Shown piece after piece: positions 1,580 to 8,506 of a stretch of DNA of 11,545 bases (its first letter is position 1; every line of letters begins with the position of its first letter). Origin of the DNA: an uncultured Oscillospiraceae bacterium. GTDB taxonomy: Bacteria; Bacillota; Clostridia; Oscillospirales; Oscillospiraceae. The notes below the pieces were generated by a model, which was given only the letters and a program-made list of their open reading frames with translations, did not search any database and had not been told where the DNA came from. The position numbers and the translations under genes were made by a program. Location of the stretch: the NCBI GenBank assembly GCA_934573935.1, contig CAKTMO010000034.1:1-11545 (forward strand), written 5' to 3'.

Positions 1580-4310
<2,731 letters not shown>

Positions 4311-4320
4311 ACCGCCCGCC

Positions 4321-6096
4321 TCAGCTTTCCGGATGCTTCATCAGGTTTGCCGCCAGCGCCAATATGGCTTTCCGATCTTCGCCCGATGCCTGTCCGGTGC
4401 GGTCGATCTTCCGGCAAAGCTCCGGCAATGTGGTCTCTGCCATGTCCAGCAGCACACGGGCGGTCTTGGCGGTATCCGCCACGGGAACATCCGCAAAGGC
4501 GTGGTCCAGCGCCGCCGTCAGCAATATGACCTGCTGGTGCTGACTGTAGGGATGGTACTGCTCCTGCCGCAGCAGACGCATCAGGCCCTGCCCGTAGTGC
4601 AGCTGCCGCTTGGTGGTGTCGTCCAGATCGCTGGAGAACTGCATGAATACCTCCATCTCGCGGTATTGGGCCAGATCAAGGCGCAGCGTACCGGAGGCTT
4701 TTTTCATAGCCTGCGTCTGTGCCGCGCCGCCCACACGGGATACGGACAGACCCACGTTGACTGCCGGGTGCTGCCCCGCGTGGAACAGACTGCTCTCCAA
4801 AAAGATCTGTCCATCCGTGATGGATATGATGTTGGTGGGGATATAGGCGGACACATCGCCCGCCTGCGTCTCCACAATGGGCAGCGCCGTCATGCTGCCG
4901 CCGCCCAGCACGTCGGACAGGTGGGCAGACCGCTCCAGCAGCCGGGAGTGCAGATAAAACACATCTCCGGGATAGGCCTCACGACCGGGGGAACGCTCCA
5001 GCAGCAGACTCAGTGCGCGGTAGGCCACGGCGTGCTTGGACAGGTCGTCGTATACGATCAGCACATCCCTGCCACGGTGCATGAAGTATTCGCCCAGCGC
5101 GCATCCGGCATAGGGCGCGATATATTGCAGCGTGGCAGAATCGCTGGCGGTGGCGGCCATTACGATGGTATAGTCCATGGCGTCGCGGCGGCGCAGCGTT
5201 TCCACCAACTGTGCCACAGAGGACGCCTTCTGTCCGATGGCCACATAGATGCAGACGATATTCTTCCCCTTCTGGTTCAGGATGGTATCCAGTGCGATGG
5301 CGGTCTTTCCCGTCTGGCGGTCACCGAGGATCAGCTCTCGCTGGCCACGGCCAATGGGGAACATGGAGTCGATGGTCAGAATGCCCGTCTCCAGCGGCTG
5401 ATCCACCGGCTGGCGGTCAATGATACCAGGGGCCGGGGCCTCCACCGGATAGTAGTCCTCCGCCGCGATCTCACCGGCGTCGTCTATGGGCTCGCCCAGC
5501 GCGTTGACCACACGGCCCAGAAAGCCCTCGCCCACCGGCGTGCCCGCCACCTTTCCGGTGCGGCGCACCATGCTGCCCTCCACGATCTCGCTGTCGTCGC
5601 CAAAGATCACGCAGCCGATCTCGGATTCCCGCAGATCCAGGATCATGCCCTTCAGTCCGCCGTCAAACAGCAGTATCTCGCCGTATTCCGCTCCGGCAAG
5701 CCCGCTGACTGTGGCGATCCCGTCGCCCACCGTCAGCACAGCGCCTACCTCATCGGCATGGGGTGCCGGTTCAAAGCCCCGGATGGTCTGCCGCACCAAT
5801 GGCATCACATCGCCATGGCTGCGGACAGCCTGCGCCACCTGCTCCTTCAACTGGCGGCTTTTGCCTGCGGCGCTCCAGTCATAGATCTGATCCAACTGCC
5901 AGCGGTAAACGGAGGTACCTACCTCGATGCGAAAGCCGTCGTGGACGCTCTCGTCCTTCCGCCACACGACGCCGACGGTCTTCTGGTACTTCTTTTCCAG
6001 AAACGCCCGCAGACGATCCAACTGCTCCTGAGAAGGCTCCTTGGCACTGTAAAGATAGGCTTCGACCTCGATCTTTCTGATCTCATGCTCCGTCAT
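4321..6096 (-). CDS. atpA: fused ATP synthase delta (C-terminal domain)-alpha subunit
   Basis: The 591-residue product is about 90 residues longer than a normal alpha subunit. Residues about 102-591 are alpha: LVRQTI then DEVGAVLTVGDGI (115-127), Walker A GDRQTGKT (258-265), VLIVYDDLSK (345-354) and the arginine finger in SVSRVGGAAQ (R454). The extra N-terminus (about 9-75) matches the C-terminal domain of the delta/OSCP subunit: YSAKEPSQEQLDRLRAFLEK (16-35) parallels E. coli delta VSAAALSEQQLAKISAAMEK, followed by KDESVHDGFRIEVG (47-60), the counterpart of KIDKSVMAGVIIRAG. The usual DGS after it is altered to YRW. The fused start is well supported: GGAGG lies eight bases before the ATG, inside the end of atpF, three bases downstream of its stop. 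No free atpH gene occurs in the cluster. The fusion is seen directly; its structural effect is inferred. Confidence 0.95.
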   Translation of the reverse strand: MTEHEIRKIEVEAYLYSAKEPSQEQLDRLRAFLEKKYQKTVGVVWRKDESVHDGFRIEVGTSVYRWQLDQIYDWSAAGKSRQLKEQVAQAVRSHGDVMPLVRQTIRGFEPAPHADEVGAVLTVGDGIATVSGLAGAEYGEILLFDGGLKGMILDLRESEIGCVIFGDDSEIVEGSMVRRTGKVAGTPVGEGFLGRVVNALGEPIDDAGEIAAEDYYPVEAPAPGIIDRQPVDQPLETGILTIDSMFPIGRGQRELILGDRQTGKTAIALDTILNQKGKNIVCIYVAIGQKASSVAQLVETLRRRDAMDYTIVMAATASDSATLQYIAPYAGCALGEYFMHRGRDVLIVYDDLSKHAVAYRALSLLLERSPGREAYPGDVFYLHSRLLERSAHLSDVLGGGSMTALPIVETQAGDVSAYIPTNIISITDGQIFLESSLFHAGQHPAVNVGLSVSRVGGAAQTQAMKKASGTLRLDLAQYREMEVFMQFSSDLDDTTKRQLHYGQGLMRLLRQEQYHPYSQHQQVILLTAALDHAFADVPVADTAKTARVLLDMAETTLPELCRKIDRTGQASGEDRKAILALAANLMKHPES

Positions 6097-6099
6097 GCG

Positions 6100-6582
6100 T
6101 CAGTCCTCCTTCTCCACCCTGTCCAGGAAATCATCCAGCGGCGCTTTTCCGGAGGGCGGCAGCAGCTTATCCACCGCCTCAGCCACAAGGGCGTCGATTT
6201 CCGTACCGGCCTCAGCCAGCACTCTGGCCTTCTCCTGTGCGGCTTCCCTCTGCGCTCTGTCCAGAATGGCGCGGCGCTCCTCCTTTGCCTGCCGGAGCTG
6301 CTCCGCCGCGGCCTGCCGCGCAGACTCCATAGCCTGCTTTTTCAGCGCATCGGCCTCATTTTCCACGTTGGCCAGATGGTCGCGGTACTGTTTCTCCTGG
6401 CGCTCTGCGTCGGCCAGCTTCCGCTTCGCCTCCGCATCCATGTCCGCGTAGTAGGCGGTACGCTTGTCCATAAATGCCTTTACAGGCCGGTACAGCAGCA
6501 GATACAGCCCGCCGAACAGAATCAGGAAGTTGAAGAGATGCAGCAATATCTGCTGCCAGTCGATATTCAGTGGTACACCCAT
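6100..6582 (-). CDS. atpF: F1Fo ATP synthase b subunit (peripheral stalk)
   Basis: The 160-residue product is the b subunit. One N-terminal membrane helix (about 8-31, ILLHLFNFLILFGGLYLLL) is followed by the PVKAFMDKR boundary motif (33-41). A long charged, Ala-rich helix runs to about 145 and would form the right-handed coiled coil of the stator. The ATG at 6582 is preferred because GGGAGG lies seven bases upstream; a GTG at 6600 overlapping the atpE stop would bury that ribosome site in the gene. Length is ordinary, so the missing delta N-terminal domain is not attached here, unlike the mycobacterial b-delta fusion. The C-terminus would meet the delta domain carried by alpha. Confidence 0.95.
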   Translation of the reverse strand: MGVPLNIDWQQILLHLFNFLILFGGLYLLLYRPVKAFMDKRTAYYADMDAEAKRKLADAERQEKQYRDHLANVENEADALKKQAMESARQAAAEQLRQAKEERRAILDRAQREAAQEKARVLAEAGTEIDALVAEAVDKLLPPSGKAPLDDFLDRVEKED

Positions 6583-6596
6583 ACCGACACCTCCCG

Positions 6597-6980
6597 TCAC
6601 AGCACGAAGATGACCAGAATGGCGATGATCAGAGCATAAATAACGACCGTTTCAATGAACACCAGACCCAACATCAGGCTGGTACGGATATTTCCGGCGG
6701 CCTCCGGCTGGCGGGAGATACCCTCTGCCGACTTACCAATGGCAAGGCCCATGCCGATGGCGGCGGCCGCAGAGGCAAGTCCCACGCAAACCGCGGCGGC
6801 CACAGCCTTGCTGCCGGTGGCGCTGCCCGCCGTGTCGGCGGCGGTCTGAGCGGTTTCTGTGACTGCCGTCGTATTGGCGGCATTATCAGACGTGGCAGCA
6901 AAGGCAGCCACGGTGCAAAGCGCGCAGATCAGCGCCGCTACCAGCGCCATAACGATCACTTTCTTAGAAATGGTTTTCAT
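6597..6980 (-). CDS. atpE: F1Fo ATP synthase c subunit with N-terminal extension
   Basis: The 127-residue product forms the rotor ring. The c hairpin is in the last 70 residues: helix 1 with a G/A-repeat (67-82), the cytoplasmic loop RQPEA (90-94), and helix 2 with the ion-binding glutamate E110 in FIETVVIY (108-115). E110 followed by T111 and Y115 resembles Na+-binding c subunits, but the Gln usual in helix 1 of those is Met (M77), so the coupling ion cannot be settled. Residues 1-57 are extra: a Lys-containing start, a hydrophobic stretch (8-28), an AFAA-type cleavage site near 26-29, then a Thr/Ala/Asp-rich linker. Ordinary c subunits are 70-90 residues. The ATG overlaps the atpB stop, with GGAGG eight bases upstream. 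Confidence 0.95.
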   Translation of the reverse strand: MKTISKKVIVMALVAALICALCTVAAFAATSDNAANTTAVTETAQTAADTAGSATGSKAVAAAVCVGLASAAAAIGMGLAIGKSAEGISRQPEAAGNIRTSLMLGLVFIETVVIYALIIAILVIFVL

Positions 6981-7819
6981 ATTCTTTTCCTCCGCAGTTT
7001 CGTTTTTTCTTTTACTTTCCGCTTGGCCGGTTCCGTGACCTCGCCATAGAACAGAGCGGTCAGCATCGTCAATACATAGGTCTGGATCAGTGCGTGCAGC
7101 AGTGTGAACATCACACCCACCGCCACCGGCAGCACGAAGCTCAGGTGGATGTAGTAGTACACCAGCTCCGTCACCAGCAGTCCACTCAGCAGCGCGCCGA
7201 ACAGACGGAAGCTCATGGATACGGGCAGTGAGAAATCCTTCAGCGTCAGCCCGATTCCCTTGACACCGTTCCCAGCGATGCCGCCGGACATAATGACAAG
7301 GTAAGACAGGCAGCCAAGGGCAATAGCCCCGTTGATATCCGACAGCGGTGCGGGCAGTGACACAGACACGCCGCCCGTTGTTACTGCCTGAATACCGAAC
7401 AGCTCAAACAGCGTCCCTGTGAAGATGTACACGCCTGCCGCAAATACATACGCGCCAAGGAAGGTATTCCGGTGGGGGCTGCTGCTTTTCGCAAGGTTAT
7501 CGAAAAAGCCCACCAGTTCCTCCAGCGCCAGTTGCAATTTTCCCGGTACCATCCGGAAACGGGGAATGACCAGCAGCCGCAGAAGCAGCGCCGCCAGCAG
7601 CAATACCCCGGATACAACCAACGCCGAAATAAACGCCGGGTCTACCGCTTTCAAGCCAAACAGGCTGATCCGGTTGGTGCCGTGCAGTACCGCGTCACGC
7701 ATCGTCTCCTTGATGGACGCCGACTCACCTCCGCCGCCCACCGCCAGCACGGCGACCAGCGTCAGCACGATCAAGCCCAGCCAGACCACCAGAAAGCGGT
7801 TCCGTTTCTTTTTCTCCAT
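6977..7819 (-). CDS. atpB: F1Fo ATP synthase a subunit (proton or sodium channel)
   Basis: The 280-residue product is the stator channel subunit next to the c ring. It has an N-terminal membrane segment, then several more between about 60 and 260. The essential arginine is R205 in MSFRLFG (202-208), and the conserved Gln of the last helix is Q246 in HALIQTYV. The Asn that usually follows RLFG is Ala here. LSDINGAIAL (159-168) is the usual D-x-N motif. The ATG at 7819 is chosen because GAGGGAG (7834-7828) lies eight bases upstream; GTG at 7828 overlaps it and ATG at 7825 is too close. The Lys/Arg-rich C-terminal tail is longer than usual. No atpI precedes it; the YoaK-family gene ends 15 bases upstream. 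Confidence 0.94.
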   Translation of the reverse strand: MEKKKRNRFLVVWLGLIVLTLVAVLAVGGGGESASIKETMRDAVLHGTNRISLFGLKAVDPAFISALVVSGVLLLAALLLRLLVIPRFRMVPGKLQLALEELVGFFDNLAKSSSPHRNTFLGAYVFAAGVYIFTGTLFELFGIQAVTTGGVSVSLPAPLSDINGAIALGCLSYLVIMSGGIAGNGVKGIGLTLKDFSLPVSMSFRLFGALLSGLLVTELVYYYIHLSFVLPVAVGVMFTLLHALIQTYVLTMLTALFYGEVTEPAKRKVKEKTKLRRKRI

Positions 7820-7834
7820 ACGCATCACTCCCTC

Positions 7835-8506
7835 TTACTTTTCTGGCACGAACATCATGCCGAAGCTGACCGACAGCAACACGCAACAGACCCAGATCAC
7901 CCAGTCGCCGAACGCCGCAGCCAGAACGCTGCCCAGCCCCGCGCCGATGCCGAATACCAGGATCACGCCGAAATAGGTCAGCGCCTTCCACAGAATTTCC
8001 TTGTCCTTCTCCCGGAAGTAGGCACACAGTGCCTCCGTTCCGGAGCGCATATTGCCGATGCACATGGTGCTGGCATAGGCGTGGCCCCGCACCTTGTGGA
8101 AGGTCTGCACCTGCAAGGCACAGACAAAGGACACCAGTGCGTTGGCCAGTGCATCCAGACGCTGGGGCATAAAGCCCACCGCAAGCAGCAGTAGGATCTC
8201 GCACAGCAGGATGATCTGCCGCCAATGGATCTTTTCATAGTGCTTCAGCCGGATATGGACGACCTCCGCCGCCGCAATACCGATCATAAAGGACAGGATG
8301 GGGATCAGATATTTCAGCGCCGTCGGCCACTCCCGCTGGAACAGCGCCGTACTGAGCAGCACGATGTTGCCCGTCTGGGCGTTGGCAAACACGCCGCCCC
8401 GGCAGCAATAGGTGTACGCGTCCTGAAAGCCGCCGGACAGAATGATAAAGATCGCCGCCCGAAAGCTGTCCGACATCTGCCCGTGAAAGCTGACGTCATG
8501 CTCCAT
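7835..8506 (-). CDS. YoaK-family (DUF1275) membrane protein
   Basis: The 223-residue product is a multi-pass membrane protein of the YoaK/DUF1275 family, whose function is not established. The family signature is clear: LSGGFQDAYTY (23-33), RGGVFANAQTGNIVLL (36-51) and, later, QTFHKVRGHAYASTMCIGNMRSG. About six hydrophobic segments are seen (near 15-30, 40-53, 64-83, 97-113, 118-131 and 158-219 as two or more). The ATG at 8506 is used because it lies two bases after the aminotransferase stop with GGAG six bases upstream; an upstream open frame to 8698 only overlaps the aminotransferase and is not coding. It sits between the aminotransferase and atpB, in the place often held by atpI, but shows no resemblance to AtpI. 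Confidence 0.9.
   Translation of the reverse strand: MEHDVSFHGQMSDSFRAAIFIILSGGFQDAYTYCCRGGVFANAQTGNIVLLSTALFQREWPTALKYLIPILSFMIGIAAAEVVHIRLKHYEKIHWRQIILLCEILLLLAVGFMPQRLDALANALVSFVCALQVQTFHKVRGHAYASTMCIGNMRSGTEALCAYFREKDKEILWKALTYFGVILVFGIGAGLGSVLAAAFGDWVIWVCCVLLSVSFGMMFVPEK

Follow-up and report, generated by a model that had tools for sequence, protein, structure and literature searches.

In canonical bacterial ATP synthases, delta (OSCP) is a separate, one-copy subunit whose N-terminal helical domain docks on the N-termini of the alpha subunits, and its C-terminal domain (deltaCTD) binds the C-terminus of subunit b. Mycobacteria have a chain in which delta is joined to b, present in one copy per enzyme. 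N-ATPases have no delta and a longer b (PMC5706428). Ueno et al. (2025) removed residues 2-104 of Bacillus PS3 delta and attached the remainder, residues 105-178, to the alpha N-terminus; the resulting deltaDeltaN-alpha enzyme carries up to three stalks, has an H+/ATP ratio of 5.8 compared with 3.0, and comes to equilibrium at 68 instead of 133 mV at one ATP/ADP.Pi ratio (PMC12229609). According to the same paper, ATP synthases so far described have a single a subunit per complex. It also names a natural delta-alpha layout for Acidaminococcus fermentans, with "similar features" in UniProt G4Q3K6 and A0A1I2C5T3, and puts forward a multi-stalk enzyme for natural fusions as a prediction (PMC12229609). 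Among the papers listed, it was the sole relevant one on delta-alpha when natural delta-alpha, b-delta-alpha or gamma-beta fusions and multi-stalk enzymes were sought in the literature available to us, which excluded bioRxiv preprints and most subscription papers. The sequence-only reading of the DNA described here named no characterised delta-alpha fusion, but the engineered enzyme is one, and natural cases are named with it. The delta-alpha fusion itself is already in print; what is new is its spread and context.

The window, meaning the whole 11,545-nt stretch analysed, encodes a complete F-type set on its minus strand in the order a, c, b, fused alpha, gamma, beta, epsilon: atpB (6977..7828, PF00119), atpE (6597..6980, 127 aa, PF00137), atpF (6100..6600, 166 aa, PF00430), the fused gene (4321..6096), atpG (3390..4310, PF00231), atpD (1987..3393, TIGR01039) and atpC (1580..1990, PF02823/PF00401). 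Pfam finds both epsilon domains in atpC. The operon has one a gene and one b gene, and no separate delta gene occurs in the 11,545-nt window. Subunit b has its own 166-aa open reading frame, which places b and delta on separate chains, and a listing of its C-terminal tail shows an FL motif also present in the b subunits of other loci. A DUF1275 membrane protein is encoded at 7835-8506, immediately 5' of atpB, and an ORF resembling it by eye lies at the same place in L001; an Abi_2 abortive-infection-like protein (212-1177, PF07751, E 1.1e-43) lies past the operon's end. The nearest named relatives of the fused gene are from uncultured Clostridia (L001) and uncultured Oscillospiraceae (L002).

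Translation of 4321..6096 gives 591 residues, the length reported in the sequence-only reading, which gave no strand. The extra N-terminus, about 90 residues long, had been taken there for the C-terminal domain of delta. That assignment is borne out by the Pfam OSCP model and by a profile of 22 such domains compared with the PDB. Searched with residues 1-95, PF00213 matches residues 8-86 (5839..6075) over its positions 100-171 of 172 with E 7.2e-9; on the whole protein it scores 31.0 bits (E 3.3e-7) against a cut-off of 22.3. Nothing in the gene matches PF00213 positions 1-99, which represent the six-helix N-terminal domain of delta. The motifs picked out earlier by eye were approximately right, and read SAKEPSQEQL (17-26), EKK (34-36) and GFRIEVG (54-60). 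NCBIfam delta models also match residues 1-95, although their thresholds, designed for full-length delta, are not reached (best 6.2e-7, 29.6 bits vs 115). A PDB search with the single sequence was not significant, placing delta chains (E 0.44-0.51) behind chance CD1b matches that start at 0.15, so a profile of domains was needed. The 22-domain profile gave 33 matches at E <=1, of which 29 are delta, OSCP, b-delta (including mycobacterial 7jg5_d) or engineered delta-alpha chains, the best at 7e-12, and the remaining four are COP9 subunits at 0.48-0.57.

Downstream of this domain the protein is an F-type alpha. Residues 96-578 match the atpA model TIGR00962 over positions 6-490 (E 8.4e-217, 720.8 bits vs a cut-off of 484.45). 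Against the N-ATPase alpha model TIGR03324 the protein reaches 619.0 bits, short of the required 750.5. The beta-barrel (residues 116-181, 5554..5751, PF02874), nucleotide-binding (residues 238-453, 4738..5385, PF00006, E 2e-80) and C-terminal (residues 460-582, 4351..4719, PF00306) domains all score above family cut-offs. Residues 87-110 (5767..5838) comprise the junction and the retained N-terminal helix of alpha, as judged from an alignment (A1) and a predicted model. The sequence evidence confirms that the window gene encodes a delta/OSCP C-terminal domain fused in front of alpha. The domain is homologous to its counterpart in canonical delta. As in N-ATPases, the operon has no separate delta gene; unlike them, the window keeps the delta C-terminal domain, on alpha. 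It shares with the mycobacterial chain a fusion that involves delta, there joined to b and here to alpha.

The closest described match is the engineered PS3 protein (PDB 9jc1). A profile of 24 natural fusions (A2) aligns over positions 13-580 with 9jc1 residues 5-576 in one stretch, and plain alpha chains start at profile position 73 or later among the 60 of 114 matches listed. An AF2 model of the window-type fusion, built from a 24-sequence alignment, has a mean pLDDT of 68.3 and predicts helices at 76-91 and 97-106 around the junction with pLDDT of about 60. Its three best Foldseek matches are 9jc1 chains I, J and K, with TM-scores of 0.52-0.58. Since this model and that of a b-deltaCTD-alpha relative (mean pLDDT 68.2, best matches likewise three 9jc1 chains) are of low confidence, they served only for the order of secondary structure and the ranking of fold matches. 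The profile and fold matches together indicate that the window holds a natural counterpart of the designed protein. Both have deltaCTD directly before alpha and lack the delta N-terminal domain; within the window's operon there is no other delta, so the gene has the layout described by Ueno et al. The Acidaminococcus fermentans fusion, compared through its published description alone, has the same domain order and the same missing domain. The engineered enzyme is man-made and its epsilon C-terminal domain was removed, whereas the window's is natural and keeps both epsilon domains; its b and c are of another lineage than those of PS3, and it is known from genes alone, while the stalk number of the PS3 enzyme was measured.

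A frameshift or assembly error joining two genes is a rival reading, and the sequence-only reading had named a frameshift among the things that would overturn it. We found nothing in favor of such an artefact and regard it as extremely improbable. The protein is frequent in public genomic and metagenomic sequences. Residues 1-95 are matched by 213 of 317 candidate proteins at E <=10; among the 120 matches listed (the window's own included) identity to this region is 94-100%, and one of the near-identical proteins represents 513 contigs. Recurrence of near-identical fused proteins on many contigs, with the same domain order in many separate genomes, excludes a sequencing error. The ribosome site proposed earlier at the fused start was recovered in a start-site scan as a strong AAGGAGG (6105..6111, minus strand), 8 nt 5' of the ATG and overlapping the end of the atpF coding sequence. 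Judged from sequence, the product is made as a fused chain.

Internal starts or proteolysis might also yield free alpha, giving enzymes built from roughly one fused and two plain alpha subunits. We scanned the junction of 29 deltaCTD-alpha sequences, among which L004 and L005 duplicate L002 and L001, and two, L068 and L073, reach the edge of their contig, the latter probably being a truncated b-fusion. At the alpha junction these 29 share no conserved start bearing a ribosome site; seven have no start codon of any kind there, and 6-base ribosome-site matches occur in only three, at differing positions. Start codons are likewise missing from the scanned junction in 5 of 13 b-deltaCTD-alpha sequences and 1 of 10 full delta-alpha sequences. 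These results argue against a mixed population, and we consider it unlikely. In its favor, the window itself has a GTG at residue 87 that follows AAGGAG with just 3 nt between them, and 6-base matches precede internal starts in L090 and L091. In L087, as in L043 of the b-deltaCTD-alpha class, the GGAGG before an internal start is a closer ribosome-site match than the sequence before the first start; some relatives also keep an internal beta start within gamma-beta reading frames. L001, the nearest relative, has a single start codon in the junction, an ATG at residue 100 preceded by a 4-base match. Internal starts in single sequences (the window, L087, L090, L091, L043) may thus leave room for some free alpha.

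We sampled genomes of the family, class and phylum of the Oscillospiraceae genome G002, the source of L002. An OSCP match at E <=0.01 occurs in 143 of 250 genomes from the family. The fused profile is matched near full length with no internal stop in at least 36 of 391 genomes of the class and at least 19 of 398 of the phylum, with G002 and four further genomes common to both samples and one of the 19 (G828) having a frame of only 246 aa. For comparison of architectures we assembled 137 loci: 60 mapped loci picked to cover frame sizes, 40 from wider samples, the window, and L001-L036. After removal of four without a usable alpha (L006, L010, L011, L016) and three duplicates (L003, L004, L005), 130 loci remain, a chosen set whose class counts are not frequencies: 61 deltaCTD-alpha, 30 free full delta, 13 full delta-alpha, 13 b-deltaCTD-alpha (plus one cut at a contig edge), 6 b-deltaCTD, 5 free deltaCTD and 1 tandem deltaCTD-deltaCTD-alpha. 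Pfam agrees for the examples scanned, giving OSCP at 3-170 in a full delta-alpha protein, two OSCP stretches in the tandem form, and b, OSCP and alpha in two of three b-deltaCTD-alpha proteins scanned, the b part of the third (L044) falling below threshold. The fused gene is the sole OSCP-family match (E <=0.01) in 22 of 23 mapped deltaCTD-alpha genomes from one family sample, a count that omits L069/G043, which has two OSCP matches, because it groups with b-fusions. A free delta is present besides the fusion in G001, the close relative that carries L001, and one may likewise lie in the window's own genome beyond the 11,545 nt covered here. The alpha ORF of L173 shows, ahead of deltaCTD, an apparent threefold tandem repeat of some 21 residues, which may be an assembly error. 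Four high-GC loci (L148, L150, L151, L155; 62.8-64.6%) have a beta insertion near the N-terminus that varies in length and sequence.

Quick trees without bootstrap were built from the alpha core, excluding the N-terminus. Fused and unfused states require 6 changes on the tree of 137 sequences. The b-deltaCTD-alpha clade adjoins ordinary free-delta enzymes, apart from the window's clade, in which full delta-alpha and deltaCTD-alpha forms are intermingled. The delta N-terminal domain is lost 5 times on a smaller tree if loss is irreversible, and fewer times with weak branches collapsed or on a larger tree, which places L075 and L093 with the main group. A free-delta sequence, L129, is nested in the window's clade, a position that implies a re-split or a second fusion. 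Separately, a single clade of all alpha-fused sequences was rejected by an AU test (p-AU 1.8e-63) on a quick tree of 58 sequences, 39 of them fused, with 7 changes; these sequences were picked after earlier trees, and their fused or unfused label was taken from gene structure. No report of the Clostridia cases, of repeated origin, or of full-length and tandem intermediates was found in the limited literature described above.

In the b-deltaCTD-alpha form the whole sequence from b through alpha is one chain. Twelve such loci are uncut (L037-L046, L057, L058), with ORFs of 736-812 aa, and L074 and L073 are cut by contig ends; a second, free b gene lies upstream. All of the 120 matches listed, out of 1143, have ATP-synt_B, OSCP and alpha domains, at 675-753 aa. 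Because all three domains recur on many contigs, the form is no assembly error. We found no published report of it within the same literature. Three b segments per F1 would result from such a chain.

A further joined frame was observed among the loci. Gamma, a rotor subunit, and beta, a stator subunit, form one open frame with no stop between them in L051 (3201-5510), L052, L053, L065, L066, L067, L163 and L165, with lengths of 766-794 aa; L078 is partial, at 645 aa, because its frame is broken within beta. These frames keep an in-frame beta start, mostly with a stretch resembling a ribosome site before it. Engineered rotor-stator cross-links near the gamma C-terminus permit rotation (PMC3536650), so a natural gamma-beta tether would not be absurd.

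For the window's enzyme, we favor with modest confidence a natural deltaDeltaN-alpha subunit that fixes the stalk to the ring and leaves F1 able to bind more than one b2-a unit. The deltaCTD on alpha would anchor the b stalk directly, covalently tying it to the alpha3beta3 ring, and this attachment of b to alpha through the fused domain is well supported by homology and, in our view, nearly certain. Three copies of alpha in each ring would allow more than one stalk. Each alpha would offer b2 a socket, no delta N-terminal domain would occupy the axis, and two or three stalks, each with its a subunit, could be assembled as in the engineered enzyme, moving more ions per ATP and allowing ATP to be made at low driving force. 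Multi-stalk assembly in the native enzyme has, in our analysis, about an even chance.

The main rival is a single-stalk enzyme, in which only one of the fused delta domains holds b2 and two are idle, the benefit being a secured stalk and a gene saved. The window's single a and b genes agree with it, since their expression could limit the number of stalks. So do the full-length delta-alpha relatives, which keep the domain expected to block extra stalks; three central domains presumably cannot share one axial site. The engineered enzyme provides evidence in both directions. By cryo-EM its particles have 0, 1, 2 and 3 stalks in 15, 51, 26 and 8% of cases, so that two thirds have one stalk or none, while gels indicate about two stalks on average and the bulk H+/ATP ratio is doubled (PMC12229609). 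A single stalk is harder to reconcile with the repeated loss of delta's central domain after fusion (the five losses noted above if irreversible, fewer on the larger tree), and with the b-deltaCTD-alpha relatives, where each fused alpha carries its own b segment. We judge the single-stalk enzyme less likely than not, though a serious contender.

Returning to the favored enzyme with room for several stalks, its subunit c bears on which ion would be moved. We scored the c-subunit position that we take to be the site where sodium-type rings carry Gln or Glu, leaving out duplicates L003-L005. Free-delta loci have Glu in 27 of 30, Gln in two and Leu in one; among the 61 deltaCTD-alpha loci, 47 carry Met or Ile there, 10 carry Asp or Asn, and four carry Gln. 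The window's c has Met at this position and keeps the Thr and Tyr of the sodium motif. Its enzyme therefore likely uses protons because of the Met, with less than certainty because of the retained Thr and Tyr. By eye, the window's c (6597-6980) has an N-terminal extension like a signal peptide and a spacer. In the 31 loci that make up the window's subclade, c measured from the first start spans 106-148 aa. Of 98 other loci, 95 have a c of 70-102 aa, the exceptions being L069 (112), L149 (128) and L060 (144).

A second rotary ATPase often accompanies the remodelled enzyme in the same cell. Of 59 genomes selected for remodelled enzymes, 45 have a V/A-type ATPase D subunit (a fragment in G230), as do 2 of 32 selected for free delta alone, a contrast confounded by kinship. 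G001 has a sodium-type free-delta operon (L096) besides its fused operon. Among the genomes with one gamma and no V/A D subunit are G060, G151, G354, G466 and G576, as far as incomplete assemblies allow one to judge.

A broader proposal, which we advance tentatively as falling a little short of probable, is that Bacillota repeatedly evolved multi-stalk ATP synthases. Fusion would have made the symmetry-breaking domain of delta dispensable, leading to its loss several times, and one lineage would have joined the whole stalk as b-deltaCTD-alpha, giving three covalent membrane anchors per F1 in an enzyme that runs at low proton-motive force in cells that also have a second rotary ATPase. Natural deltaCTD-alpha and above all b-deltaCTD-alpha enzymes are candidates for a change in the ion-to-ATP ratio through multiplied stalks and not a larger c-ring, and relatives of the window gene could reveal whether nature makes multi-stalk ATP synthases.
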